Below, in pieces: positions 20,985 to 38,138 of a DNA stretch of 38,347 nucleotides. The stretch comes from Actinomycetota bacterium (lineage in GTDB: Bacteria; Actinomycetota; UBA4738; HRBIN12). Below the pieces are notes generated by a model. The model did not search any database and had not been told where the DNA came from. It was given only the letters and a program-made list of their open reading frames with translations. How positions within the stretch are numbered: position 1 is the first letter of the stretch; each line of letters begins with the position of its first letter. The stretch spans positions 1-38,347 of the forward strand of contig VAXZ01000009.1 of the NCBI GenBank assembly GCA_005885035.1. The letters run 5' to 3'. The translations under genes and the position numbers were made by a program.

Positions 20985-21025
20985 AGGAGCTCACCGACGG
21001 AGGTTCCGCCGGTCACCCTTCGTAG
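20591..21025 (+). CDS. GNAT-family N-acetyltransferase, N-terminus truncated
   Basis: The frame shows the core of a GNAT fold: strands [19 protein letters not shown], the acetyl-CoA motif A region [25 protein letters not shown] with the RRRGIA pyrophosphate loop, and the C-terminal motif B with [12 protein letters not shown]. The first strand and two helices, some 40-50 residues, are missing because the frame joins the TrpB2 coding end out of phase. TTG at 20591 is the only nearby start and has no good ribosome site; I use it only to give a coordinate. The 3' end overlaps the stop of the minus-strand SGNH gene by 13 bases. Substrate unknown; function doubtful if the truncation is real. Confidence 0.65.
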
Positions 21026-22077
21026 GTGCGGGGGTCCAACTGGAACTGTTGCGTGGCGAACCGGGCGACCAGACGCATCAGGATCGTGTATCCGTCCGCG
21101 TTGAAGTGCACGCCGTCATCCGCACGGACGAGGGTGAGCTGTTTGCCGTCGTGGTAATACGCGGTGTAGCCACCGCCAGGTGCGGCGAACGTGTTCCACG
21201 TGTCGAAGAACGCCACGTTCGTGAGTCCGTCGGCAACGGCCTGGAAGGCACCGTTCTGTCGCTCGATGAACTCCCAGCGCCTCGTATCGCGGGGGTTCGG
21301 GAGCCCGACCCAGATCACGTGTCCCCCCTCGGACGTCGCGACCCGGGCGAACGAGCGCACGCGCTGTTCGTACGCGGGAGGGAAATCCCCCGTGCCGACC
21401 TGGGCAACCAGCTGCCCTTCGGGCGTCACCAACGACTGGGCGTCGTTCTCCCCGAGCATCACGATCGTCAGGTCGGGACGGGATCGATCGACGATGAGCC
21501 GCATCTGTGCCGGCCAGTTGAAGTAGTCGGGGCGAGAGAGTCCCGTCGAGATCCGGCCTTGCTTGATCACGTCCACGAGGGACGGCTTGAACACCCGCTC
21601 GGCGAACGACCCGATCCCTTGGGCAAGCGAATCTCCGACGACCACCACGCGCAACGGCTTCGCGGCGGTGGGCTCGCGGATCTTCGTGTCGCGCTGCGGG
21701 TGACCGCTGAGGTGGCTCGGCGTCGGAACGCTCGGCAACGGGTCGACGTCGCCGGCGCCGCCGACCGCTTCGTTCGGACGGCGACCGAGCGCGCTGCTGG
21801 CGTTGTCGATCAGCCCGGTGAGGCCGAGTCGACCCTCCACCCATACGACCGGTCGGAGGATCGCGAGCGAAACGGTCCTGCGGATGCCGTCGGGTTGGGC
21901 CTCGGATGATCGCTTCAGCTCGGGCGCGTACAGCAGGCCCCACAGGAGTATGCCGACCAGGAGCACCACGAGGACCCGCCCCGCGGGCATGCCCCGCCGG
22001 CCCGGAGGCAGGCCGTCGGCAGGGTCGTTCGGCCGCTCGTGCCCGGCCGTCGTGCGTTCCTGGGTGTCGGTGGTCAT
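21013..22077 (-). CDS. Membrane-anchored SGNH/GDSL hydrolase (DUF459-like)
   Basis: A 354-residue protein with one N-terminal membrane anchor (about 34-50, VLVVLLVGILLWGLLY) and an extracytoplasmic SGNH esterase/acyltransferase domain. The blocks are visible: VVVGDSLAQG with S150, GEND with N211, and DGVHFNADGY with D321 and H324 as catalytic residues. It follows the MBOAT gene by one base in the same operon, a pairing known for alginate and cell-wall O-acetylation (AlgI with AlgX/AlgJ; PatA/PatB), where the MBOAT moves acetyl groups across the membrane and the SGNH protein places them on a sugar. The acceptor here is unknown. It converges with the truncated GNAT gene. Confidence 0.85.
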   Translation of the reverse strand: MTTDTQERTTAGHERPNDPADGLPPGRRGMPAGRVLVVLLVGILLWGLLYAPELKRSSEAQPDGIRRTVSLAILRPVVWVEGRLGLTGLIDNASSALGRRPNEAVGGAGDVDPLPSVPTPSHLSGHPQRDTKIREPTAAKPLRVVVVGDSLAQGIGSFAERVFKPSLVDVIKQGRISTGLSRPDYFNWPAQMRLIVDRSRPDLTIVMLGENDAQSLVTPEGQLVAQVGTGDFPPAYEQRVRSFARVATSEGGHVIWVGLPNPRDTRRWEFIERQNGAFQAVADGLTNVAFFDTWNTFAAPGGGYTAYYHDGKQLTLVRADDGVHFNADGYTILMRLVARFATQQFQLDPRTYEG

Positions 22078-22078
22078 C

Positions 22079-23506
22079 TCAGAATTGGAAGTAGATGAAC
22101 GGCGCGACGCCGCGGGGCCCGAGCGTCGTTATCAGGAAGAGTACGACCGCGACCGTGATGCCCAGCGGGACCGGGCGGAGCCGCGAAAGAGCCGCCTTGA
22201 GCCGTTCCGCGGGCCGATGTGGAAGGAACTGTGTCACGAGCCCGGCGGAGATCGCCAAGAGGACGGGGGTGGTGACGAGGGGTGAGGGGAGCCGCCACGC
22301 GGTCAGGGTCCGCGCGAGCAGGGCGACAGCGGTCGCGACCGAGTCCGCTCGGAACAGCGTCCATGCGATGCAGACGAGCGTGAAGGTGGCGAGCCGCTGC
22401 ATCCAATGGACGAGGAGGGTGTCCGGCGGCTCGGCGAGCTGCCCCGCCTTCCGCTTGCCCTCCTTCCAGTGCCCCACCGCCAGGTAGGCCCCGTGCAGAC
22501 CGCCCCACACGACGAAATGCCATGCCGCGCCGTGCCACAGACCGCCCAGAAGCATCGTGATCATCAGGTTGAGGTAGGTGCGAGCCGACCCCTTGCGGTT
22601 GCCGCCGAGCGGGATGTAGAGGTAGTCGCGCAGCCACCGGGACAGCGTCATGTGCCAGCGACGCCAGAACTCCTGCACGGAGCGCGCGCTGTAGGGACGG
22701 TCGAAGTTCTGCGGGAACCGGAACCCGAGGAGCTTCGCGACCCCGATCGCGATGTCGGTGTACCCGCTGAAGTCGCAGTAGATCTGGACCGCGTAGGCGA
22801 CGATCCCGATGACCACCTCGGGAGAGCTGTGCCGAGCGGGATCGCCGAAGACGGGATCGACGATCGCGCCCGCGAGGTAGTTGGCGATCACCACCTTCTT
22901 GAACAACCCACCGAGGATCAGCCACATCGCCCCCGCGACATCGATCTGGCGGGGGTCGCGTCGCACGACGAGTTGGGGGATGAGCTCGTTCGGACGCACG
23001 ATCGGCCCCGCGACGAGGTGGGGGAAGAAGGATAGGTACAGGAACAGGTCGACCCAGCTCGCGATCTCGAAGTCGCCGCGGTAGATGTCCACGACGTAGG
23101 CGATCGCCATGAACGTGTAGAACGAGACCCCCACCGGCAGCACGACCTGGATCAGGGGCGGGGCGACGTGCAGCCCGAACGAGGTGGCGGCGTTCGTGAC
23201 GTTGACGGTGAAGAAGCCGTAGTACTTGAAGTAGAGGAGAGGGGCGATCGTTGCAGCGACGCCAAGCGCGAGGGCGAGGGTTCGGCGTTTCGCGTGGTGT
23301 TGGCGATCCACGGCGATCGCGGCGACCTGGGTGATCAGCGACACGGCCGCGAGGAGGAAGACGTAACGCCAGTTCCACCAGCCGTAGAACACGTAGCTCG
23401 CCGCGATCATGAATGGCTTCCACACCCGGGGGTTGTGGTTCAGCCACCAGTGGCCCAGGAAGACCAGGCAGAAGAAGATCGCGAAGTCCGTCGTGGGGAA
23501 GAGCAT
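22079..23506 (-). CDS. MBOAT O-acyltransferase (AlgI/DltB-like)
   Basis: A 475-residue polytopic membrane protein of the AlgI/PatA/DltB family, which takes acyl groups from a cytoplasmic donor and passes them to the cell exterior. Signatures seen are YVFYGWWNWRY (39-49), PLLYFKYYGFF, the GVSFYTFMAIAYVVDIYRG stretch (126-144), SFFPHLVAGPI, YCDFSGYTDIAIG, FWRRWHMTLSRWLRDYLYIPLGGN (H285) and MLLGGLWHGAAWHFVVWGGLHG with the conserved H325. It is full length with an ATG at 23506. The downstream SGNH hydrolase begins one base after its stop. No alginate, cellulose or teichoic-acid gene is nearby, so the modified polymer is unknown; the glycosyltransferases at 27.8-30.1 kb are a distant candidate. 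Confidence 0.92.
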   Translation of the reverse strand: MLFPTTDFAIFFCLVFLGHWWLNHNPRVWKPFMIAASYVFYGWWNWRYVFLLAAVSLITQVAAIAVDRQHHAKRRTLALALGVAATIAPLLYFKYYGFFTVNVTNAATSFGLHVAPPLIQVVLPVGVSFYTFMAIAYVVDIYRGDFEIASWVDLFLYLSFFPHLVAGPIVRPNELIPQLVVRRDPRQIDVAGAMWLILGGLFKKVVIANYLAGAIVDPVFGDPARHSSPEVVIGIVAYAVQIYCDFSGYTDIAIGVAKLLGFRFPQNFDRPYSARSVQEFWRRWHMTLSRWLRDYLYIPLGGNRKGSARTYLNLMITMLLGGLWHGAAWHFVVWGGLHGAYLAVGHWKEGKRKAGQLAEPPDTLLVHWMQRLATFTLVCIAWTLFRADSVATAVALLARTLTAWRLPSPLVTTPVLLAISAGLVTQFLPHRPAERLKAALSRLRPVPLGITVAVVLFLITTLGPRGVAPFIYFQF

Positions 23507-27762: not shown

Positions 27763-28811
27763 TGCGGATCGCGGTGTGCCACCCACAAGCTCCCTTCATG
27801 GCGGGAGGCGCGGAAGCGCACGTGCGCGGGTTGGTCGCCGCGTTGCGCGAAGCCGGTCATGAGGCCGAGACGGTCACGATGCCGTTCAAGTGGTACCCGC
27901 CATCCGAGCTGGTGCATCAGATGGGTGCATGGAGGAGCGTCGATCTCTCGGAGTCGAACGGCGAGCCGATCGACCTCGTCATCGCGCTGAAGTTCCCCGC
28001 GTACCTCGTTCGTCATCCCAACAAGGCCGTATGGCTCATCCACCAGCACAGGACCGCCTACGAGCTGTGGGACAGCCCCGAGCTCGGCGACATCGCCGGG
28101 TATCCGGACGGTGCCGTCGTCCGGAGCCTGATCCACAGCGCGGATCGGCTGGCGTTGGGCGAGGCGTCCCGGCTCTTCACCAACTCCGAGAACGTGCGCG
28201 GCCGGCTGGACAGCTCGATCGGCCTGGACGCCGAGGTCCTCTATCACCGCTCACCGCTCACCGATCGTCTCCTGGCGGAAGATGCGCGGCCCCTGGGGGA
28301 CGCGATCGTGTTCCCGAGCAGGTTCGACCGCCTCAAACGGCAAGGGCTGGCGATCGACGCCATGCGGCAGGTGGGAACCGATGTGCGTTTGATCCTGGTC
28401 GGTTCCGGAGCCGAACGGGATACGATCGCGAAACGCGTCGCCGAAGCCGGCCTCGGTGAACGCGTCGAGATGCGCGAACGCGTCCCCGACGACGAGCTCC
28501 TCGAGTTGTATCTCGGCTCGCTCGGCGTGTACTTCGGTCCCCTCGACGAGGATTACGGGTACGTGACGATCGAGGGGATGGCCGCCGCCCGTCCGGTGGT
28601 CGTCACCTCGGATTCCGGGGGTCCGCTCGAGTTCGTCCGCGATGAAGAGAACGGCTCGATCGTGGACGCAGAACCCGCAGCGATCGCGGCGGCTTTCGAC
28701 CGGCTCTTCACCGACCGGCAGCTGGCGCGACGGCTGGGATCGGCCGGTCGAACGTTCGTCACCGACCACATCCCGCAGTGGCCGGAGGTCGTCCGCCGCT
28801 TGGTCGGGTGA
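27762..28811 (+). CDS. Glycosyltransferase, GT4-like
   Basis: A 349-residue GT-B enzyme. The N-terminal domain opens with MRIAVCHPQAPFMAGGAEAHVRGLVAALREAGHE, the acceptor side of family-4 enzymes. The C-terminal donor domain has AIVFPSRFDRLKRQGLAIDAM, LILVGSGAERD and the acidic DEDYGYVTIEGMAAARPVVVTSDSGGPLEFV segment, whose glutamate contacts the nucleotide sugar. There is no signal peptide, and it acts on the cytoplasmic face. Overlaps (TGATG) join it to the methyltransferase. Donor and acceptor sugars cannot be read. Confidence 0.87.
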   Translation: MRIAVCHPQAPFMAGGAEAHVRGLVAALREAGHEAETVTMPFKWYPPSELVHQMGAWRSVDLSESNGEPIDLVIALKFPAYLVRHPNKAVWLIHQHRTAYELWDSPELGDIAGYPDGAVVRSLIHSADRLALGEASRLFTNSENVRGRLDSSIGLDAEVLYHRSPLTDRLLAEDARPLGDAIVFPSRFDRLKRQGLAIDAMRQVGTDVRLILVGSGAERDTIAKRVAEAGLGERVEMRERVPDDELLELYLGSLGVYFGPLDEDYGYVTIEGMAAARPVVVTSDSGGPLEFVRDEENGSIVDAEPAAIAAAFDRLFTDRQLARRLGSAGRTFVTDHIPQWPEVVRRLVG

Positions 28812-28815
28812 GTCG

Positions 28816-30081
28816 ATGGCGAACGTCGCGTTCTGCTCGCCCTTGCCCCCCGCGCAGACGGGGATCGCGGCGTACGCCACGGCGGTGCTGGGCGGGCTCG
28901 ACGAGATCGGGTTCACCGCCGAACACCACGTCGACGCGATGTGGCCATCGGGACCCGGCGCCGAGGAGCGCGTTCGCGCGTCGGACGTCGGCGTCTTCCA
29001 GTTGGGGAACAACGTCGAGTTCCACGGGGCGATCTACCGGCTCTCGGTGTGGAACCCTGGGGTCGTCGTCCTCCACGATCTGGCGCTCGACGGGCTGATG
29101 TACGGGCTGGGGCTCGCGAACGACCCGCTGACGCAGCCCGCCCGCGCGGAAGCGATGGCGGCCGCCGCTCGCAACGCCGACCTCGAGGATCCGCTCGGGG
29201 TCCCGTGGTGCGCGCAGGCGGTCCGGCGAGCGAGGACCGTGATCGTGCATTCGCGGTTCGCGCGTGACTACCTGCTCCGAGTCGGATGCAGGACCCCCAT
29301 CGTCGTGACGCCGCATCCGTTGGTGGAACGCGACGACGAGATCGATGCGGCGCGCGAGCGACGAGTCAGACTCCGTCACCGGGTTGCCCGGGGGGACGAG
29401 GTGGTCGTGGGGATCGCGGGAGATCTCAACGCGAGCAAGGGCATCGAAGCGCTGCTGGCCGCGCTCCCTCGGGTTCGCTCGAATGTCCGTGGCGTGCTCG
29501 TCGGGCGAACGAGCTCGCATTGGGACGTCCAGGGAGCCGTCCGACGGAGTGGCGTGGAGGACCGGGTCACCGTCGTCACCGACGTCCGGGACGACGAATT
29601 CCTCGAATGGCTGTGCGCATTCGACATCCTGATCAACCTCCGCCACCCGCACCGTGGCGAGACCAGCGGTTCGCTGGTGCGCGCGTTGCATGCGGGCGTC
29701 CCCACGATCGTGAGCGCCGTGGGCACCTACCTCGAGGTGCCGGAGGGCGTGGTGGCCCGGATCGCGTCCGGTCCGCCGGATCCCGTCGAGCTGGCCGCCG
29801 CGATCGATCGCCTCGCGGAAGATCGGGAGGCTCGAGGGTCGATGAGCCGCCACGCGCGGGACTACGCGCGAAGCGCGTTGGCCCCGCGCGTGACGGCGGC
29901 GGGGTACGCGGAGGCCGTGCACCGGGTGCTCGAGCTCAACGCCGACCCCGTCCGGACGTCGATCGCGCGATGGGCGCGCGGGCTGCGTGCTGTGGGCGTC
30001 GGCCCGCAGCACGCAGCCCGCGGCCTCGGGGTCCGGTTCGCCGAGGCGCTGTTCGAGCTCCGGCCGGAGTCACCCGGATGA
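28816..30081 (+). CDS. Glycosyltransferase, GT4-like, second of the pair
   Basis: A 421-residue GT-B-type enzyme starting MANVAFCSPLPPAQTGIAAYATAVLGGL, typical of glycosyltransferases with a PPxxSGIAxY loop. TVIVHSRFARDYLLRVG is the linker region, VVVGIAGDLNASKGIEALLAAL and GVLVGRTSSHW form the start of the donor domain, and GETSGSLVRALHAGVPTIVSAVGTYLEVPEGV is the donor-binding signature. The C-terminal 40 residues are basic and may touch the membrane. It follows the previous glycosyltransferase by four bases and overlaps the Fur gene by ATGA. Likely works with its neighbours on one glycan or glycolipid. Confidence 0.87.
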   Translation: MANVAFCSPLPPAQTGIAAYATAVLGGLDEIGFTAEHHVDAMWPSGPGAEERVRASDVGVFQLGNNVEFHGAIYRLSVWNPGVVVLHDLALDGLMYGLGLANDPLTQPARAEAMAAAARNADLEDPLGVPWCAQAVRRARTVIVHSRFARDYLLRVGCRTPIVVTPHPLVERDDEIDAARERRVRLRHRVARGDEVVVGIAGDLNASKGIEALLAALPRVRSNVRGVLVGRTSSHWDVQGAVRRSGVEDRVTVVTDVRDDEFLEWLCAFDILINLRHPHRGETSGSLVRALHAGVPTIVSAVGTYLEVPEGVVARIASGPPDPVELAAAIDRLAEDREARGSMSRHARDYARSALAPRVTAAGYAEAVHRVLELNADPVRTSIARWARGLRAVGVGPQHAARGLGVRFAEALFELRPESPG

Positions 30082-30542
30082 GCTTCGACCTCGACGCGAC
30101 GGCGACGGCGAGGCTCCGATCGGCCGGACAGCGGTACACGACGCAGCGTCGTCGGCTGATCGAGCTCCTCGCCGATGCGGGCAGCCCCGTGTCGATCCCG
30201 GACATCCTCGCCGGTGGCTCCGGTCTCAAACAGAGCTCGGTCTACCGGAACCTCGCGGCGCTCGAGCAGGCCGGCGTGGTGCGCCGGCTCGTGACCGATG
30301 AGGAGTTCGGTCGCTACGAGCTGGCGGAGGACCTGATCGGCCACCACCATCACCTCGTTTGTTCGCGATGCGGCAAGATGCGTGATGTGGCCGCACCCGA
30401 GGAGCTCGAGCGAACCCTCGAGAGGGCGCTCGACCGGATCGCGAAGCGGGCGGGGTTCGCTCGCGTCTCTCACCGGCTGGAGCTGCTCGGGCTCTGCGCC
30501 GACTGCGCCGCGGAGGTGGGGGCCGATACGACGAGGGCTTGA
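30078..30542 (+). CDS. Fur-family metal-responsive regulator
   Basis: A 154-residue Fur/Zur-type repressor. Residues 10-80 form the winged helix (LRSAGQRYTTQRRRLIELL, SIPDILAGGSGLKQSSVYRNLAALEQAGVVRRL). The regulatory metal site is GHHHHLVCSRCGKMRDV, and the structural zinc site uses the pairs CSRC and CADC. Fur, Zur or PerR cannot be separated by eye. Its position inside a glycosylation/membrane operon, translationally coupled to a glycosyltransferase by ATGA, is unusual for the family. The following lipoprotein and binding protein might belong to a metal response, but no Fur box was recognised. Confidence 0.9.
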   Translation: MSFDLDATATARLRSAGQRYTTQRRRLIELLADAGSPVSIPDILAGGSGLKQSSVYRNLAALEQAGVVRRLVTDEEFGRYELAEDLIGHHHHLVCSRCGKMRDVAAPEELERTLERALDRIAKRAGFARVSHRLELLGLCADCAAEVGADTTRA

Positions 30543-30951: not shown

Positions 30952-31526
30952 CCGAGGGGCTGATCCTCGGTCGCCGGTCGCGAGGTGCCGACGTCGACGT
31001 GGCGATGGCCCTGGCAGTGCTGGCGGGTTGCGCGTTGCTGCTCATCCGCACTTCGTTCACCGGTCTCCCCGCGACGGCCACCGTGTTCGCCGCGTTGTAC
31101 CTCCTGTTGGGGACGGCCTCCCTGGCCGTCCCGGTCGGGGGCGGTGGTGCACGGTGGCTCTCGCCCTTCGGTGTGGCAGCGGCGGGGATCACAGCCATCG
31201 TCCTGGCCGCGTGGCTCGTCGGCCCGGGCTTCCCCGTCCCGCACGGGCCTGAGGTCCTGCTGCTCAACTCGCTCGCCGCGGTCTCCGAGGAGCTGTTCTT
31301 CCGGCGGCTCGTCTACGGTGGGATCGTGCGGTTCGGCCCTGCGCTCGCGATCGGGGGATCCGCGCTGCTGTTCGCGACGCTCCACGTTCCGATCTACGGT
31401 CCCGCCGTGTTCTGGGTCGACCTCGGTGCAGGCCTCCTCCTCTCGTGGCAGCGCTGGGCATCGGGGGGGTGGGGCGCGCCCGCGGCGACGCACGTCGTCG
31501 CGAACCTCGTCGCCGTCCTCCGATGA
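30948..31526 (+). CDS. CPBP-family intramembrane metalloprotease
   Basis: A 192-residue membrane protein with about six hydrophobic segments. The CPBP (CAAX protease and bacteriocin-processing) motifs are in order: SEELFFRRLVYG (EExxxR), LLFATLHVPIYG (FxxxH) and ATHVVANLVAV (HxxxN). GTG start overlaps the lipoprotein stop; the stop overlaps the next ATG by ATGA. Bacterial members cleave or chaperone membrane peptides; the substrate is not known. Neighbouring lipoprotein genes are candidates only by position. Confidence 0.87.
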   Translation: MTEGLILGRRSRGADVDVAMALAVLAGCALLLIRTSFTGLPATATVFAALYLLLGTASLAVPVGGGGARWLSPFGVAAAGITAIVLAAWLVGPGFPVPHGPEVLLLNSLAAVSEELFFRRLVYGGIVRFGPALAIGGSALLFATLHVPIYGPAVFWVDLGAGLLLSWQRWASGGWGAPAATHVVANLVAVLR

Positions 31527-32770
31527 AGCGCACGCTCGCGATGCTGCTGTGCTCGTCGTTGCTCGTGGCCGGCGTTTCCTGTTCGAAGGACGCGCAGCCG
31601 ATCCGGATCGGCGCGATCTACCCACTGACCGGGTCCCAGGGTCCCGGAGGGCGAGACGAGTTCCGCGGCGTGTCGCTCGCGACCGATCTGGTGAACGTCG
31701 ACGGGGGGGTCGGCGGGCGGCCGATCCAGCTCGCGCCCCTGGACGTCGCAGGCGGCGATGCCGCCCCCGGCGCTGTGGACACCCTCGCCGACCAGGGGAT
31801 CCGATTCATCCTCGGGAGCTACGGCAGCACGATCTCACAGCCGGCCGCCGCGGAGGCCGCGCGGCGAGGCGTGCTGTTCTGGGAAACGGGCGCGGTCGGT
31901 TCCTCGTCCCCCTCGAGCGGCGGACGCCTGTTCTTCCGGGTCGCCCCGAGCGGGCAGTTGCTCGGCAGCGATGCGATCTCGTTCGTGGATCGACAGCTCC
32001 TCCCGAAGCTCGGACGATCCCCCCGTTCGCTGCGGTTCGCCGTCGCGAACGTGAACGACGTCTACGGCAGCGCCGTCGCGGACGGCGCGATCGCCAGGAT
32101 CAGGGCGCTGGGGCTGCCGTTCGTCGGGCGTTTCGTCTACGACGCGGCCCACCTGGATGCCCACGCGGTGATCCGGCGGATCGCGGCGGTCCATCCCGAC
32201 GTCCTGTTCGTCTCGGCGTACGTCCGCGACGGGATCGCGCTCCGGCGAGAGATGGTGCGTCAGCGCTTGCGCCTCGTCACGAACATCGGAACGTCGTCGA
32301 GCTACTGCATGCCCGCGTTCGGAGCCGCGCTGGGGCCTGAGGCGGTCGGGCTGTTCTCCTCCGACAAGCTCGACAGCGAGTACGTCGATCCGGCCGGACT
32401 GACCCCCTCGGGGCGTGTGCTCCTCGATCGGGCTCGGACGGCGTACGAAGGCCGCTACGACGAGGAGATGAGCGCGGCGGCGCTCGCGGGGTTCTCGGCG
32501 GCATGGGCCCTGTTCCACATGGTGCTCGCGGCCGCCGATGCGACGACGCCCGAGGCCGCGGCCGCGGCCGCGCTCCAGATGCGGGTGCCGGTCGGAGAGC
32601 TTCCGAACGGGAGCGGTCTCGCGTTCGCGCCGCCGGGAACCGCGGACCCCGGTGCGAACCTCCGGGCGATGAGCGTGATCTGGGAATGGGTGCGCCCGGG
32701 GGTGCGAGCGGTGGTGTGGCCGCAGCGGTTCGCGACCGCGCCGATCGCCGCGATCCGGATCGAACCGTGA
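31523..32770 (+). CDS. Liv-type periplasmic binding lipoprotein (ABC transporter SBP)
   Basis: A 415-residue extracellular binding protein with a signal peptide and a probable lipobox cysteine near residue 20 (LLVAGVSCSKDA). The Peripla_BP_6 fold is clear: IRIGAIYPLTGSQGPGG, VSLATDLVNVDGGVGGRPIQL, FILGSYGSTISQPAAAEAARRGVLFWETGAVG, and FVSAYVRDGIALRREM. These proteins bind branched amino acids, amides or aromatic acids. No LivHMGF permease or ATPase genes are adjacent, so it either serves a distant transporter or acts as a sensor. Overlaps on both sides (ATGA, GTGA) tie it to the operon. Confidence 0.88.
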   Translation: MKRTLAMLLCSSLLVAGVSCSKDAQPIRIGAIYPLTGSQGPGGRDEFRGVSLATDLVNVDGGVGGRPIQLAPLDVAGGDAAPGAVDTLADQGIRFILGSYGSTISQPAAAEAARRGVLFWETGAVGSSSPSSGGRLFFRVAPSGQLLGSDAISFVDRQLLPKLGRSPRSLRFAVANVNDVYGSAVADGAIARIRALGLPFVGRFVYDAAHLDAHAVIRRIAAVHPDVLFVSAYVRDGIALRREMVRQRLRLVTNIGTSSSYCMPAFGAALGPEAVGLFSSDKLDSEYVDPAGLTPSGRVLLDRARTAYEGRYDEEMSAAALAGFSAAWALFHMVLAAADATTPEAAAAAALQMRVPVGELPNGSGLAFAPPGTADPGANLRAMSVIWEWVRPGVRAVVWPQRFATAPIAAIRIEP

Positions 32771-33576
32771 GCCCGCGTCGGCGGGCCGCCGCCGTCGGGG
32801 TCGCGCTGTGTCTCGCCTACCTCGCGGGTGCCGTGGTGAGCGCCTCGCTGGGTCCTTCGTCGCGCCGTCCCATCCTCGACGGACTGGCGCCGCCGCCGTT
32901 GTACCGGTGGGTCGACCCTCCTCCCGCGCTCGCCTCCAGCAACCAGCCTCCGAGCGCCGGTCGATCGCTGATCGCGCTGGACCCCACCAAGGGGTCGGCG
33001 GCGACCGTGTTCTCGACCCGGGACTTCCAGGCGAGCCTCGCCCTTGGGGAGGGCGCGGTCGCGCCCCACGGAGCGGATACGAAGGTGCAGCTGGTCATCA
33101 CCCCGCTCGCCCCGAAGACCGGCGCGATCGTTCCCGCGGGAACGCAGATCGCGGGCAACGTCATCGAGGTGTCGGCGACGTACGAGCCGAGCGGAGCGTC
33201 CGTCGGCGAGCTGCGCACGCGGGGGGAGCTCGGACTCGTCTACCCCTTGCTCTTCCAGGGCGTCGGGTTCACGGATGCGATGCTCCGCTCCCAGGACCAG
33301 CGGTCCTGGTCCGCGATCAAGAGCGACGATGCCATCGCCCAGCAGTCCGTGCACGCGGCGGTGAGCAGGCTGGGCCTCTACGCCGTTGGGCAATCCCCCG
33401 TGGGCCCGACCTCGCCTCCCTCACCCGCTGCCGGCCCCCGGAACGGCTCGATCGTCGTCGCGATCATCGCCGCGGTGGTCCTGATCGGGGCGGTCGCGTT
33501 GCTCCGGCGACGATCGCCCGGACCGCCCCCCCCTCCGCCGCGCCGCAGGCGCAGCGTCGACCCGTGGGAAGACTGA
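32767..33576 (+). CDS. Membrane-anchored extracytoplasmic protein, function unknown
   Basis: A 269-residue protein starting at a GTG that overlaps the previous stop. An N-terminal hydrophobic helix (AAAVGVALCLAYLAGAVVSA) and a C-terminal helix near residue 225-245 (SIVVAIIAAVVLIGAVALL) flank an extracytoplasmic domain of about 190 residues, and a proline/arginine-rich cytoplasmic tail (PPPPPPRRRRSVDPWED) ends it. I recognise no family; the domain is beta-rich, with repeated references to position-specific glycine turns. It follows the binding protein and may interact with it. It ends the overlapping operon; the next gene has its own promoter-like box. Confidence 0.72.
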   Translation: MSPRRRAAAVGVALCLAYLAGAVVSASLGPSSRRPILDGLAPPPLYRWVDPPPALASSNQPPSAGRSLIALDPTKGSAATVFSTRDFQASLALGEGAVAPHGADTKVQLVITPLAPKTGAIVPAGTQIAGNVIEVSATYEPSGASVGELRTRGELGLVYPLLFQGVGFTDAMLRSQDQRSWSAIKSDDAIAQQSVHAAVSRLGLYAVGQSPVGPTSPPSPAAGPRNGSIVVAIIAAVVLIGAVALLRRRSPGPPPPPPRRRRSVDPWED

Positions 33577-33611: not shown

Positions 33612-33671
33612 CGCCCGCGGTCGGCGTCCCGGCCGCCCGCGGCGTTCGCCGAGCCTCTGACCGGAGATCCC

Positions 33672-36600
33672 ATGACATCCACTGACGGACAGGTGAGCCC
33701 GGCCGCAGCGACCGGCGGGCTCCGCCCGCCGGTCGCCGCGGCCCGCCTCGGATCATGGTGGATCCTCGCCGCCGCCACGCTCCTGATGCTCGGGGTGTTG
33801 GGATGGCGGTTCGTCGCCGACCCGTCGCTTGCGGCTCCGACCCGCGATCCCGCCTGGTACACGTGGCGGGCGAACGTCGTGATGGAGGACGACCCGGCCT
33901 CCGTCGTGCAGGGATGGGGCCCCGCCGGTCTGTTCTCGGGCGGCTACCGGGTGACCGTCCCGGTCGAGGGAGCCTTGCTGCAGCGTGTCGTCGGCATCGA
34001 CACGTACTCGATGGCGAAGTTCCTGATGCTCGGCGTTCCCATCCTCACGGGTCTCGCGTTGGGGGCCGGCGCGGTGCGAAGCCGGAAGGATCCCGTCGCT
34101 TTCCTCACGATGCTGCTGGCGACCGTGGCGCTGTTCCTGACGACGCCCTACGTCGGGTACCTCGACAACATCACCGTGCTCTTCCTGTTGAGCCTGATGC
34201 TGGCGTTCCTGAGCGCGGCGCGAACCTCGTGGGGAGCCCGGACCGCGCTCTTCTTGATCGGGATCGCCGCCGCGTTCACCCACCCCACGACCTGCGTGCT
34301 CTTCGGCATGACGCTCTTGGCCGTGTTCGTGTTCCACTTCGTCACGAGCCGGTTCCGGCTCGGCGAGGCCCTGAAGTCCGACGGGCCGATGCTGCTCTCG
34401 GTCGGGCTCGGCATGTCCGCGGGGCTCGCGAGTTGGGTGGTCGGGATCTGGGGGGCGAGCGCCAACCTGAAGGACGCTGCCCTGCCGCCCCCGTACACGA
34501 AGTCGTTCTTCGTCGCCCGGCTGCTCGAGTGGATCGGTTCGATGCAGCCCGTGATCGTGGTGCCGTTCATCGCGCTGGCGATCGGTTCGACGATCCTTCT
34601 CGCTCGACGCCGCCGGGTGCCGGCGGATACCTTCGACGTCACGGCTAGCTGGTGGCTCTTCCCGCTGTTGGGGATCGCGTCGGTCGCGCTCGGCGCCGAC
34701 GCCCAGGTGTCGGGTGATCCGAACTCCCCGGTCGTCCCCTACTACCGGTTCATGAACGCGACCGCCGGGCCGATGGCGCTCGTGGGGCTCGGCGCCTTCG
34801 CGCTGATCTGGTGGGCCCGCACCCAGCGGGACCGGCGGTCGCTCGTCCGGGGGTTCGCCATGATCGTCGGCGTCGTCGCGGCCGCCTGGGCTGTGGACGC
34901 GGTATCGCTGACACATCCGCAGATCCCGTCGAAGGTGTTGGGCGTCGTGGCGGTGGTCGCGATCGCCGGCCTCGCCGCCGTCGCGTCCGCTCGGAGCGAG
35001 GGGACGCGCCGGGTCTTCGCGGTCGCCGCTGCGTCCGCGCTGGTCCTCGGCTCGCTGGGGTTCCTGCTGATCGACGGCGTCGAGCACCGGTGGGTCAGCG
35101 CGACGAACCAGTATCCGAACGTATCGGTTCGCGGTTCGCTCGCCGCGGTCGACGTCGTGGCACGAGCGGCCGGAGCGCGACCGCTCGTCTTGATCGTGAA
35201 CGACGGCGACACCGATGATCCGGCGACCCACACCAACACGGCGTACGGGTGGGCCAAGACCTATACGAACGTCTTCCGCACGGGGCTGCCGGGCACCTCG
35301 GCGAAGTACCAGGCGACGTACCTCGGTTCGTTGGAGAACTTCCTGGCCGGCCGAGCGACCAGCAGCACGTCCGGCAGCATCGGCTACGACCGAGCGGCAG
35401 AGAGCCATTACCAGGAGCTGCAGCTCCGCGAACGGACCTACCCGGTTCCGCCCGCGGTGTTCCTGGTCCGCGAGTACTACGGCGGGCTCTGCAACGGCGT
35501 TCCTGACTGCACCGAAACATCGCGTCAGCAGCGTCTGGAGGCGGCGCTCGCCGAAGGCGTCGCGATCGGCCCGGACGTCGTCGTCATGCAGTGGCCCGGC
35601 TTGTGGTCGCCGCCGGCCGACGTCGTGGGGGAGGCGAACGTCGTCGCGAACGCCACGGTCGAGGCGCTCGAGCATCACCCTGGACCGCTCGCCAACTTTC
35701 CACACACGCTGCTCGTGATCGCGATCCTCGCCCTGCTCCTGCTCGTGCCCGGCGGGCTCGCGCGACGCTGGTTCGGGCTCGACTCGACGATCGACCGGTT
35801 CGCGCTGATCCCGGGGGTTTCGGTCGTGCTCGTCATGCTCGCGGGGGTCGGAACGCTCGCCGTCTGGCGGGGACCGCTCACCATGACCAAAGGGTGGGCC
35901 GTCGTGGTGGTCGCGATCGGCATCGGGGTCGCCCTGCGGTTCGCCGATGCCTGGCTCCGACGGCCGCTCGACGCGTTCGGCAGGTTCTTCGACGACCTCT
36001 TCGCGGTCTTCTCGAACCGCGACTTCTCCGTCCTGATGGGCTACCAGTTCCTTGCACAAGCGGGTCAGGGAGTCGTTCAGGGAGCCATCTTCAAGGCGTT
36101 GGTGTTCGGCGGCGAGAAGGGATTCGACATCTCGGTCGCGCCGTCGGCCGATTACCTGCTCAAGGTCGTCCTGGCCCTGTACATCCCATACACGTTCCTC
36201 TCCCCGTTCGTCGGCGTGTTCATCGACCGGTTCGAACGACGGCGGGTCGCCTGGTGGGCCGACATCCTGAGCGCTGCGATGGTCGCATCGATCGTGATCC
36301 TCGTGGTCTTCCCCTTGGGTTCCGGGTCGCCGGAGCACAGGACCTGGCCGACGGCCGGGTTGATCGTGGGGCTGCTCGTCGCCCAATCGGTCGCACGCAT
36401 CGCGCTCGCGATCAAGTCCGCGGCGCTGCCCGACGTGCTCTCCGGGAGGGACCTCCTGCAGGGCAACGGTCTCTCCCAGGCGGGCGGCGGGCTCGCGCAG
36501 GTCTTCGGGATCGGCGTCGGCACGATCGTCGCCGGGCAGATCGCGCCGTGGGTCGGTGTCCTGTTCGGTGCGGCGGTCCTCCTCGCCGGCGCCATGGTCT

Positions 36601-37346
36601 CGAGGCAGATGCGTCGGGTCGAAGCGCGCCGTCACGACGGGAGCCTCGGTCAGGAGGTCCGTCGGATCCTTCGGACCGTGGTCGCTGGCGTCGAAGAGGT
36701 GGCCGGGCGACCGGCGGCGGCGCTCGGGCTCTCCGCCTTCCAGATGCTGCGCTACCAGTTCTGGGGGTTCGTCCTGATGACGTTCGCCCTGTACGCGAAG
36801 AACCTGGTGCAGGGTGGCAACGCCGACACCCTCTCGCAGATCCTCTCGGGGGTCGGGGGGCTGGTCGGCGGGGCCCTCGGCCTGATCGTGGCGCAGCGGC
36901 TGAAGGACCGTGTGCCGCCGATCAGGCTGCTGCTCGGTTCGATGCTCCTACTCGGCGCGGCGACAGTGGTCTTGGGTGGGATCCTCACCGTCGCCGCGTT
37001 CGCGGCGCTGCTGTTCGTCGGCTTCTTCTCGTTCTTCCTCGGGAAGATCTCGACGGACACGATCACGCAGCAAGCGATGCCCGACGACTTCCGCGGGCGC
37101 GCGTTCGCGCTCTACGACATCGCCTACAACCTGGGGTTCATCGTTCCGGCGGCGATCCTGTCGGTCATCTGGATCGAGGGCAACGCCGCGCGGACGCGCG
37201 AGATCCTCGTGGCGTCGGGAGCGATCTTCCTCATCCTCACCGCGTTCGTCGCCGCGTGGTCGCGACGGATCCGCCCGGATCTGGCCCCGCAGGACGACCT
37301 CGTGGGGGACGAGGCGGCCGAGCTGGCCAGGTCCACCGAATCCTGA
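33672..37346 (+). CDS. Fusion of a GT-C-like membrane protein with an MFS transporter
   Basis: A single 1224-residue frame. Residues 28-465 contain about ten or eleven membrane helices with an extracytoplasmic first loop (PTRDPAWYTWRANVV) in the manner of GT-C or polyprenol-linked glycosyltransferases, and AFTHPTTCVLFGM in helix 5. Residues 475-665 form a soluble outer domain (RGSLAAVDVVARAAGARPLVLIVNDGDTDDP, a cysteine pair CNGVPDC). After three helices (675-765) a major-facilitator domain starts near 775 (NRDFSVLMGYQFLAQAGQG) with VGVFIDRFERRR as the loop 2-3 motif and runs to about 1190. Start ATG at 33672. It follows a glycosyltransferase operon, so export of a lipid or saccharide coupled to modification is conceivable. 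Neither activity is proven. Confidence 0.8.
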   Translation: MTSTDGQVSPAAATGGLRPPVAAARLGSWWILAAATLLMLGVLGWRFVADPSLAAPTRDPAWYTWRANVVMEDDPASVVQGWGPAGLFSGGYRVTVPVEGALLQRVVGIDTYSMAKFLMLGVPILTGLALGAGAVRSRKDPVAFLTMLLATVALFLTTPYVGYLDNITVLFLLSLMLAFLSAARTSWGARTALFLIGIAAAFTHPTTCVLFGMTLLAVFVFHFVTSRFRLGEALKSDGPMLLSVGLGMSAGLASWVVGIWGASANLKDAALPPPYTKSFFVARLLEWIGSMQPVIVVPFIALAIGSTILLARRRRVPADTFDVTASWWLFPLLGIASVALGADAQVSGDPNSPVVPYYRFMNATAGPMALVGLGAFALIWWARTQRDRRSLVRGFAMIVGVVAAAWAVDAVSLTHPQIPSKVLGVVAVVAIAGLAAVASARSEGTRRVFAVAAASALVLGSLGFLLIDGVEHRWVSATNQYPNVSVRGSLAAVDVVARAAGARPLVLIVNDGDTDDPATHTNTAYGWAKTYTNVFRTGLPGTSAKYQATYLGSLENFLAGRATSSTSGSIGYDRAAESHYQELQLRERTYPVPPAVFLVREYYGGLCNGVPDCTETSRQQRLEAALAEGVAIGPDVVVMQWPGLWSPPADVVGEANVVANATVEALEHHPGPLANFPHTLLVIAILALLLLVPGGLARRWFGLDSTIDRFALIPGVSVVLVMLAGVGTLAVWRGPLTMTKGWAVVVVAIGIGVALRFADAWLRRPLDAFGRFFDDLFAVFSNRDFSVLMGYQFLAQAGQGVVQGAIFKALVFGGEKGFDISVAPSADYLLKVVLALYIPYTFLSPFVGVFIDRFERRRVAWWADILSAAMVASIVILVVFPLGSGSPEHRTWPTAGLIVGLLVAQSVARIALAIKSAALPDVLSGRDLLQGNGLSQAGGGLAQVFGIGVGTIVAGQIAPWVGVLFGAAVLLAGAMVSRQMRRVEARRHDGSLGQEVRRILRTVVAGVEEVAGRPAAALGLSAFQMLRYQFWGFVLMTFALYAKNLVQGGNADTLSQILSGVGGLVGGALGLIVAQRLKDRVPPIRLLLGSMLLLGAATVVLGGILTVAAFAALLFVGFFSFFLGKISTDTITQQAMPDDFRGRAFALYDIAYNLGFIVPAAILSVIWIEGNAARTREILVASGAIFLILTAFVAAWSRRIRPDLAPQDDLVGDEAAELARSTES

Positions 37347-37349
37347 GCC

Positions 37350-38138
37350 GTGGCCGAGGTCTTCGCGCACGACGGGACGCGGCTCCACGTCGAGGTCGAT
37401 GGCGCGGGTGATCCCGTGACGGTGCTGGCGCACGGTCTGACCAACTCGTGCAAAGAGCTGTCGGCGTTCACCCCTATGGCGCCGGGCACGAAGGTGCGCT
37501 TCTGCTTCCGAGGTCATGGGCACTCGGGGACGCCCGAGCCCGGGCACTACCGATTCGCGGACTTCGCCGGAGACGTTGACGTGGTCGCGCGCACGTACGG
37601 CGCCACACGGGCGGTCGGGACCTCGCTCGGACAGGGAGCCATCACCCGGCTCCTGGCCGAACAGCCGGATCGGTTCGAACGGCTCGTGTTCATCCTGCCC
37701 GCAGCGTTGGACCTTCCCCTGTCGGGGACCGAGATCGCCGGGTTCGAACGCACGGCCGACCTGCTGGAAACGCTTCCGACCGACCAGGCGATCGACGAGA
37801 TCCTCCGGGGGTCGGGGCGAGCGAGCGAGTACACGGATCGACCTTGGCTCCGGGACGTCGACATGTTGTTGTGGCAGGACCTCCAGCCCCTCGGCGTGGC
37901 TCGAGCGCTTCGCGAGGTGACGCTGGACGTCGCGATCGCCGATCGTGAGCTGCTCCGGCGGGTGAGCGCGCCCACGCTCGTGATCGCCCGCGAGGGCGAT
38001 CCGGTCCACCCCGCGGAGCTCGGCCGTGTCCTCGGTGAACTGATCCCGAACGCGGAGCTCATCCTGCTCGGTTCGGAGGAGGAGCTGTATGCGTCGATCC
38101 CCCAGCTGGTCGAGCGCGTGGCTCGGTTCCTCGGATGA
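37350..38138 (+). CDS. Alpha/beta hydrolase-fold protein, catalytic His not evident
   Basis: A 262-residue soluble protein. The oxyanion region LAHGLTNS, RGHGHSGTPEPGHY, the nucleophile elbow VGTSLGQGA (serine) and the acid-residue strand VIAREGDPVHPAE are in the right order. Where the catalytic histidine normally lies near the C-terminus (GH before the last helix) the sequence reads LLGSEEELYASIPQLVERVARFL, with no histidine. It may use a different residue or be a non-enzymatic or non-esterase member. GTG start at 37350, four bases after the fusion gene, and ATGA overlap with the next gene, so it is probably co-transcribed with both. Confidence 0.8.
   Translation: MAEVFAHDGTRLHVEVDGAGDPVTVLAHGLTNSCKELSAFTPMAPGTKVRFCFRGHGHSGTPEPGHYRFADFAGDVDVVARTYGATRAVGTSLGQGAITRLLAEQPDRFERLVFILPAALDLPLSGTEIAGFERTADLLETLPTDQAIDEILRGSGRASEYTDRPWLRDVDMLLWQDLQPLGVARALREVTLDVAIADRELLRRVSAPTLVIAREGDPVHPAELGRVLGELIPNAELILLGSEEELYASIPQLVERVARFLG

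Follow-up and report, generated by a model that had tools for sequence, protein, structure and literature searches.

In the GT-C glycosyltransferases ArnT, ALG6 and PglB the catalytic aspartate lies at the tip of helix JM1, the same place as in PimE, in which Asp58 is catalytic and is hydrogen-bonded by Tyr62 (PMC12041525). In three-component glycosylation (GtrA/GtrB/Gtr*; undP-Ribf synthase/MATE flippase/GT136) a GT-C enzyme is served by a flippase for the lipid-linked donor, and direct evidence of flipping is missing both for Gtr-type flippases and for those of mycobacterial polyprenyl-phosphate sugars (PMC11127046). Within the major facilitator superfamily (MFS), LtaA is the glycolipid flippase of lipoteichoic acid synthesis (PMC8866510), and the lipid flippase LplT is encoded next to Aas in many bacteria and in one open reading frame (ORF) with it in some (PMC11416262). 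Here we describe a gene at positions 33672 to 37346 of contig VAXZ01000009.1 (assembly GCA_005885035.1, Actinomycetota bacterium), the product of which joins a GT-C-like half to an MFS transporter; this domain fusion is real and conserved, and apparently undescribed. The window is the whole stretch of DNA analysed (38,347 nucleotides). Its family, uncultivated actinobacteria of soil and groundwater, is referred to as f1, two sister families as f2 and f3, another family as f4, and a second family of Actinomycetota as f5.

The fusion gene and its conservation

The gene and its parts are as follows:

33672..37346, + strand: GT-C-MFS fusion gene, 1224 amino acids (translation; in-frame homologues in 18 genomes)
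33663..33666, + strand: GGAG, ribosome-binding-site-like, 5 nt 5' of the ATG (sequence)
33672..35963, + strand: GT-C half, residues 1-764, with membrane helices, soluble domain and three-helix tail (AlphaFold2, Foldseek)
35961..36017, + strand: junction/linker, residues 764-782, modelled as a helix (model, codon comparison)
36018..37268, + strand: MFS half, residues about 783-1199, 12 transmembrane helices, DHA3/LplT-like (PF07690, fold matches)

A first-pass annotation, made from the letters of the window, had read an in-frame fusion of 1224 residues with no missing segment, and translation bears this out: a single frame opens with the ATG at 33672 and closes with the stop at 37346, free of internal stops and frame shifts. 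The same frame is open 5' as far as a GTG at 32808; conservation begins only from 33672, and in the alignment the N terminus coincides with those of the homologues at L022, L023 and L024. The boundary between the modules lies at about residues 764-782, close to the split at 770/771 proposed earlier. Full-length identity is 42-93% in f1 and f2 and 33% in f3, and codon changes fall mainly at the third position in both modules. Because the full fusion is conserved across f1-f3 under this pattern of codon change, the ORF is more than chance and represents a real gene.

All genomes found are, by title, metagenome-assembled, which would favour an artefact of assembly or annotation. Such an origin is given next to no probability, since the two sides of the junction share one frame in 16 of 17 f1 genomes and are also in frame in two sister families, in separately assembled genomes at 33-93% identity; the artefact reading was rejected on this census. 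Within f1, both halves lie in a single frame in 13 genomes, two of them cut 5' by a contig end; contig ends truncate the gene in G015 and G016, which nevertheless span the junction, and G011 is the sole genome without it. The single genomes sampled from f2 (G017) and f3 (G018) carry the fusion. The halves are thus fused in many relatives; the first-pass annotation had allowed for their being separate genes in all of them. A side observation concerns G009 (L027:9304-12838), in which a frame shift in the soluble domain at about residue 605, with the junction intact, reflects either sequencing error or decay.

A profile of the N-terminal half (E <= 1e-20), searched against 397 Actinomycetota genomes, matched only the window's class and family f5, and a scan of 84,980 species genomes gave 29 loci, 27 titled as actinobacterial and two as 'bacterium' only. 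In all 16 matching f5 genomes the N-terminal half is unfused, in a frame of 551-780 amino acids. The f5 MFS protein is encoded by a separate gene, usually about 1.6-1.9 kb 5' of the GT-C gene with one gene of the alkaline phosphatase superfamily between them; the MFS gene immediately adjoins the GT-C gene at L056 and L064, and at L038 it lies about 8 kb away.

Fused in the window's class and neighbours in reverse order in f5, the two proteins appear from this arrangement to be functionally linked, and simple read-through does not explain the fusion. An origin from the f5 arrangement by mere loss of a stop codon between adjacent genes was rejected, because in f5 the MFS gene comes first and the GT-C gene second, usually with the phosphatase-family gene between. 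Trees of both halves agree in placing f5 in one group and f1 with f2 in another, with f3 as a long branch between. This is consistent with one fusion event within the window's order, the unfused f4 gene being either earlier or a loss; the rooting is unproven. Separately, at L072 (6119-8191 and 8358-9650, genome G020) a distant GT-C paralogue is directly followed by another MFS gene (MFS_3-like), and the two may represent a further GT-C/MFS pairing of independent origin.

The GT-C half

The features of residues 1-764 are:

33837..33869, + strand: PTRDPAWYTWR, residues 56-66, in the first outer loop and the beginning of JM1 (alignment A1, model)
34281..34292, + strand: HPTT motif, residues 204-207, with His204, Pro205 and Thr207 invariant (alignment A1)
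34737..34757, + strand: PYYRFMN motif, residues 356-362, with Pro356, Arg359, Phe360 and Asn362 invariant (alignment A1)
34824..34994, + strand: insertion of about 57 residues (about 385-441) that is confined to the genus and forms two additional helices in the model (alignment, model)
35094..35696, + strand: outer soluble alpha/beta domain, residues about 475-675, with Lys529 and Asn533 invariant (alignment, model)
35697..35960, + strand: three-helix tail, residues 676-763 (alignment, model)

Residues 1-793 gave no above-chance match in Pfam or NCBIfam and match no described GT-C sequence family; a sequence search of the PDB gave no usable match for the N-terminal half, two weak hits being dismissed as soluble proteins. 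The half was modelled with AlphaFold2 (mean pLDDT 83.9, pTM 0.87) by using alignment A1, which holds 18 homologues of 91% to 30% identity. Compared with the PDB by using Foldseek, the model matched ArnT first (5f15, E 3.4e-6) and second (5ezm, E 9.2e-6) and PglB third (6gxc, E 4.1e-3), each with probability 1.00. The fourth match was unrelated (probability 0.14), the fifth was human oligosaccharyltransferase (OST), and DPY19 and ALG3 stood further down; all but the fourth are GT-C enzymes. The N-terminal half is very probably a protein of the GT-C fold glycosyltransferase superfamily. Its family is, as judged from sequence, an unnamed one outside the profile families searched.

Asp59 (codon 33846-33848), Tyr63, Trp65 and Arg66 are invariant across the 18 homologues, as are Gly91-Tyr92-Arg93, Tyr163 and Asp165. 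In the model, the first outer loop carries Asp59 immediately ahead of helix 60-72 (JM1), with Tyr63 at i+4, an arrangement that matches Asp58 and Tyr62 of PimE; Asp59 at the JM1 tip is the proposed catalytic residue. The GT-C-like character suggested by the first-pass annotation is thus found again on structural comparison, in the matches to ArnT, PglB, DPY19 and ALG3 and in the Asp-xxx-Tyr pattern at JM1.

A GT-C fold need not be an active transferase. PIGU of the GPI transamidase exemplifies the non-catalytic GT-C-like folds (PMC12041525), and the low overall similarity to solved GT-C structures would suit a module that binds lipid or acts as a scaffold for the MFS half. We consider this improbable, as a scaffold would not need Asp59 and Tyr63, which are kept in homologues down to 30% identity; the D-xxx-Y pattern, read from the sequences, also recurs in four of five distant paralogues inspected.

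The earlier annotation recognised two membrane modules and an outer soluble domain, all of which were seen; it placed the domain between the modules, and there it has to be corrected. The domain sits inside the first module, after the main membrane region and before the last three helices. These helices belong to the GT-C half, because the stand-alone f5 relatives have them too, and they would return the chain to the cytoplasm, fitting the usual cytoplasmic N terminus of an MFS protein.

The insertion of about 57 residues was found only in the window, L022 and L023, that is, in the window's genus. In this region (residues 401-445), 10 of 15 codon differences from L022 and 17 of 22 from L023 change the amino acid; the segment is weakly constrained.

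The MFS half, the neighbourhood and a proposed role

Residues about 783-1199 are an MFS transporter, as had been proposed: PF07690 matches residues 832-1158 (E 2.3e-21; 76.6 bits against a cut-off of 33.4), 12 helices are seen in the model, and motif A is present.

36213..36242, + strand: MFS motif A, GVFIDRFERR, with Gly848, Asp852, Arg853 and Arg856 invariant (alignment A2)

PF05977 matched at E 1.8e-5, under the cut-off of that model. Weak NCBIfam matches included TIGR00900 and, among acyl-ACP--phospholipid O-acyltransferase fusions, their MFS part; the LplT-Aas-type model PRK08633 was matched in its MFS part alone, at 28.6 bits against a cut-off of 1221, which was not reached. A sequence search of the PDB gave no match for this half at 0.01. 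Its fold matches are general MFS proteins, namely ferroportin, MdfA, EfpA, Spns1 and Spns2, of which Spns1, Spns2 and EfpA are lipid transporters.

On balance we lean towards an extracytoplasmic, polyprenyl-phosphate-sugar-dependent GT-C transferase coupled to an MFS module that flips a lipid-linked donor or a glycolipid acceptor. Module 1 (residues 1-764) would take a sugar from a polyprenyl-phosphate-sugar at the outer face of the cytoplasmic membrane, with Asp59 at the JM1 tip acting as base and held by Tyr63, and would pass it to an envelope glycan or glycolipid. Module 2 would translocate the lipid-linked substrate across the membrane, be it the donor or the glycolipid acceptor, and hand it over to the fused transferase. 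In this scheme we infer donor type, acceptor, flipping and hand-over alike. Judged by analogy, the chances that the MFS half flips a lipid-linked substrate are about even. The fullest form of the proposal, in which one polypeptide flips a lipid-linked sugar and transfers the sugar to an envelope glycan, channelling substrate between its halves, with an undescribed GT-C family and an MFS module instead of an SMR, MATE or ABC flippase, is tentative and has somewhat less than even chances.

The MFS half might instead export or recycle another cargo (a lysolipid, the free product, polyprenyl phosphate or a small solute), the fusion fixing stoichiometry or location and not substrate supply. MFS folds are versatile, and the sequence is nearest to DHA3/LplT-type families, members of which carry lysophospholipids or drugs; flipping of donor or acceptor is preferred to this by analogy alone, with Gtr-type systems and LtaA. 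We regard another cargo as rather unlikely.

A role in an envelope glycan is likely, because relatives carry both proteins as neighbours in a surface-polysaccharide locus. The f5 locus is operon-like, with the two genes usually a few kilobases apart, in the order alkaline-phosphatase-superfamily gene, MFS, alkaline-phosphatase-superfamily gene, GT-C, O-antigen ligase/polymerase, Wzx-type flippase, sulfotransferase. In Pfam searches, Phosphodiest/alkaline-phosphatase genes adjoin the GT-C/MFS pair, and 3' of the GT-C gene stand Wzy_C (1.9e-15) and Polysacc_synt (2.2e-15), often with sulfotransferase and sulfatase genes; such a gene content marks the f5 locus as one of polysaccharide assembly. 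An ArsP permease, DUF1980 and alkaline-phosphatase-superfamily genes occur beside the GT-C/MFS unit in both lineages and, because these neighbours are shared, the fused and split units most likely derive from the same ancestral locus.

These neighbours also bear on the possibility of an export or detoxification device, in which the GT-C half would glycosylate a compound on the outer side of the membrane, with the MFS half as an efflux pump. It could draw on the TIGR00900/DHA3-like similarity of the MFS half and on EfpA and MdfA among the fold matches. The neighbours, however, are phosphatase-family enzymes and, in f5, polysaccharide assembly genes, not those of resistance or secondary metabolism, and GT-C enzymes use membrane lipids and not nucleotide sugars as donors; a detoxification device is therefore very unlikely.

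Several observations weigh against a coupled transferase and flippase in the envelope. The ArnT match has a TM-score of 0.38 (by query) or 0.49 (by target) at 14% identity, which is superfamily level only, and donor and acceptor therefore cannot be read from ArnT. The MFS fold matches, which include drug pumps and ferroportin, are not substrate-specific, and the model of the full length is less certain (pLDDT 74.8). In the f4 genome G023 (73% complete) the GT-C half occurs on its own, neither fused to an MFS protein nor near an MFS gene. Polysaccharide-assembly genes flank the f5 version alone, and the locus of the window's genus lacks the phosphatase-family genes.

Beside the fusion, the window holds:

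37350..38138, + strand: alpha/beta hydrolase, a conserved neighbour in the fused lineage (PF00561, E 3e-11; orthologues 3' of the fusion in 12 other loci)
31523..33576, + strand: substrate-binding protein (31523-32770) and hypothetical protein (32767-33576) 5' of the fusion, only in the window's genus
27798..30081, + strand: two GT4-type glycosyltransferases (PF00534/PF13692), with homologues close to the fusion in L023 and partly also in L035 (f3)

In the window's genus the substrate-binding protein, the hypothetical protein and a CPBP protease stand where phosphatase-family genes would. The first-pass annotation had based an envelope-glycan role partly on the protease and the binding protein, which fail as a basis, being confined to this genus among the loci examined; the role itself gains from the phosphatase-family partners and from the f5 O-antigen ligase/polymerase, Wzx-type flippase and sulfotransferase.

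The f1 fusion is flanked by zinc-uptake-like genes (named from sequence, not profile-tested), with the alpha/beta hydrolase 3'. Many f1 genomes (L024-L035, L046) have ZnuABC-like genes, a Fur-family regulator and an ArsP/DUF1980 permease pair 5' of the fusion; of this set the window keeps only the Fur-family gene (30078-30542). The supply of zinc may be linked to the phosphatase-family enzymes encoded at the locus. L059:64-1413 (-) and L024:6086-7405 (-) are phosphatase-family genes that are transcribed divergently beside active-looking ones; the match to Pfam Phosphodiest is only marginal (E 0.003 for L059), so that a pseudoenzyme may be encoded. At 21013-23506 of the window, an MBOAT O-acyltransferase adjoins a DUF459/SGNH hydrolase-like protein, as is typical of glycan O-acylation, and homologues of both are also found 5' of the fusion in L026.

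Elsewhere, the window's own genome encodes a phosphatase-family homologue (C117) and an Lnt-GT2 fusion (C92), which we take to have the layout of mycobacterial Ppm1. The latter is a candidate source of the polyprenyl-phosphate sugar; none of the eight PF00535 (GT2) matches of the genome lies on the window's contig, so that no lipid-sugar synthase was found at the locus, where the nearby glycosyltransferases are GT4-type. At L083:685-1995, also in this genome, a GT2 domain like those of polyprenyl-phosphate hexose synthases is fused to a methyltransferase, and the adjoining membrane protein resembles GT87 by eye.

Comparison with known systems

Literature searches for a GT-C enzyme fused to an MFS protein or flippase gave no described case; most subscription papers lay outside the search, which makes this weak evidence. 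Polyprenyl-phosphate sugar flippases are an old gap, and a natural GT-C-MFS fusion names a flippase candidate tied to its enzyme, with the MFS as a possible carrier for the flipping step. It also points to a GT-C family that has no Pfam entry.

With GT-C enzymes of the ArnT/PimE/PglB type (GT-CA) the N-terminal half shares the multi-helix fold and an acidic residue, here the proposed catalytic one, at the JM1 tip in the first outer loop (PMC12041525), and with ArnT and PglB a soluble outer domain. It differs from them in having no detectable sequence family, in TM-scores of only 0.38/0.49 to ArnT and in the MFS module at the C terminus. As in LplT-Aas, MFS protein and enzyme are adjacent or fused, and the MFS half weakly matches the MFS part of such fusions (PRK08633); Aas, however, is an acyltransferase of the cytoplasmic face, whereas the partner here is a polytopic GT-C protein, predicted to act outside, that lies N-terminal to the MFS. 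LtaA is also an MFS protein, one that flips a glycolipid for the synthesis of an envelope polymer, but it stands alone, and a close sequence relation to it is not shown. A GT-C transferase, recognised here by Foldseek, is common to the Gtr-type systems and the fusion; in the former the flippases are separate proteins of SMR or MATE type, and no donor synthase was found at the fusion locus, where flippase and transferase would be one chain.

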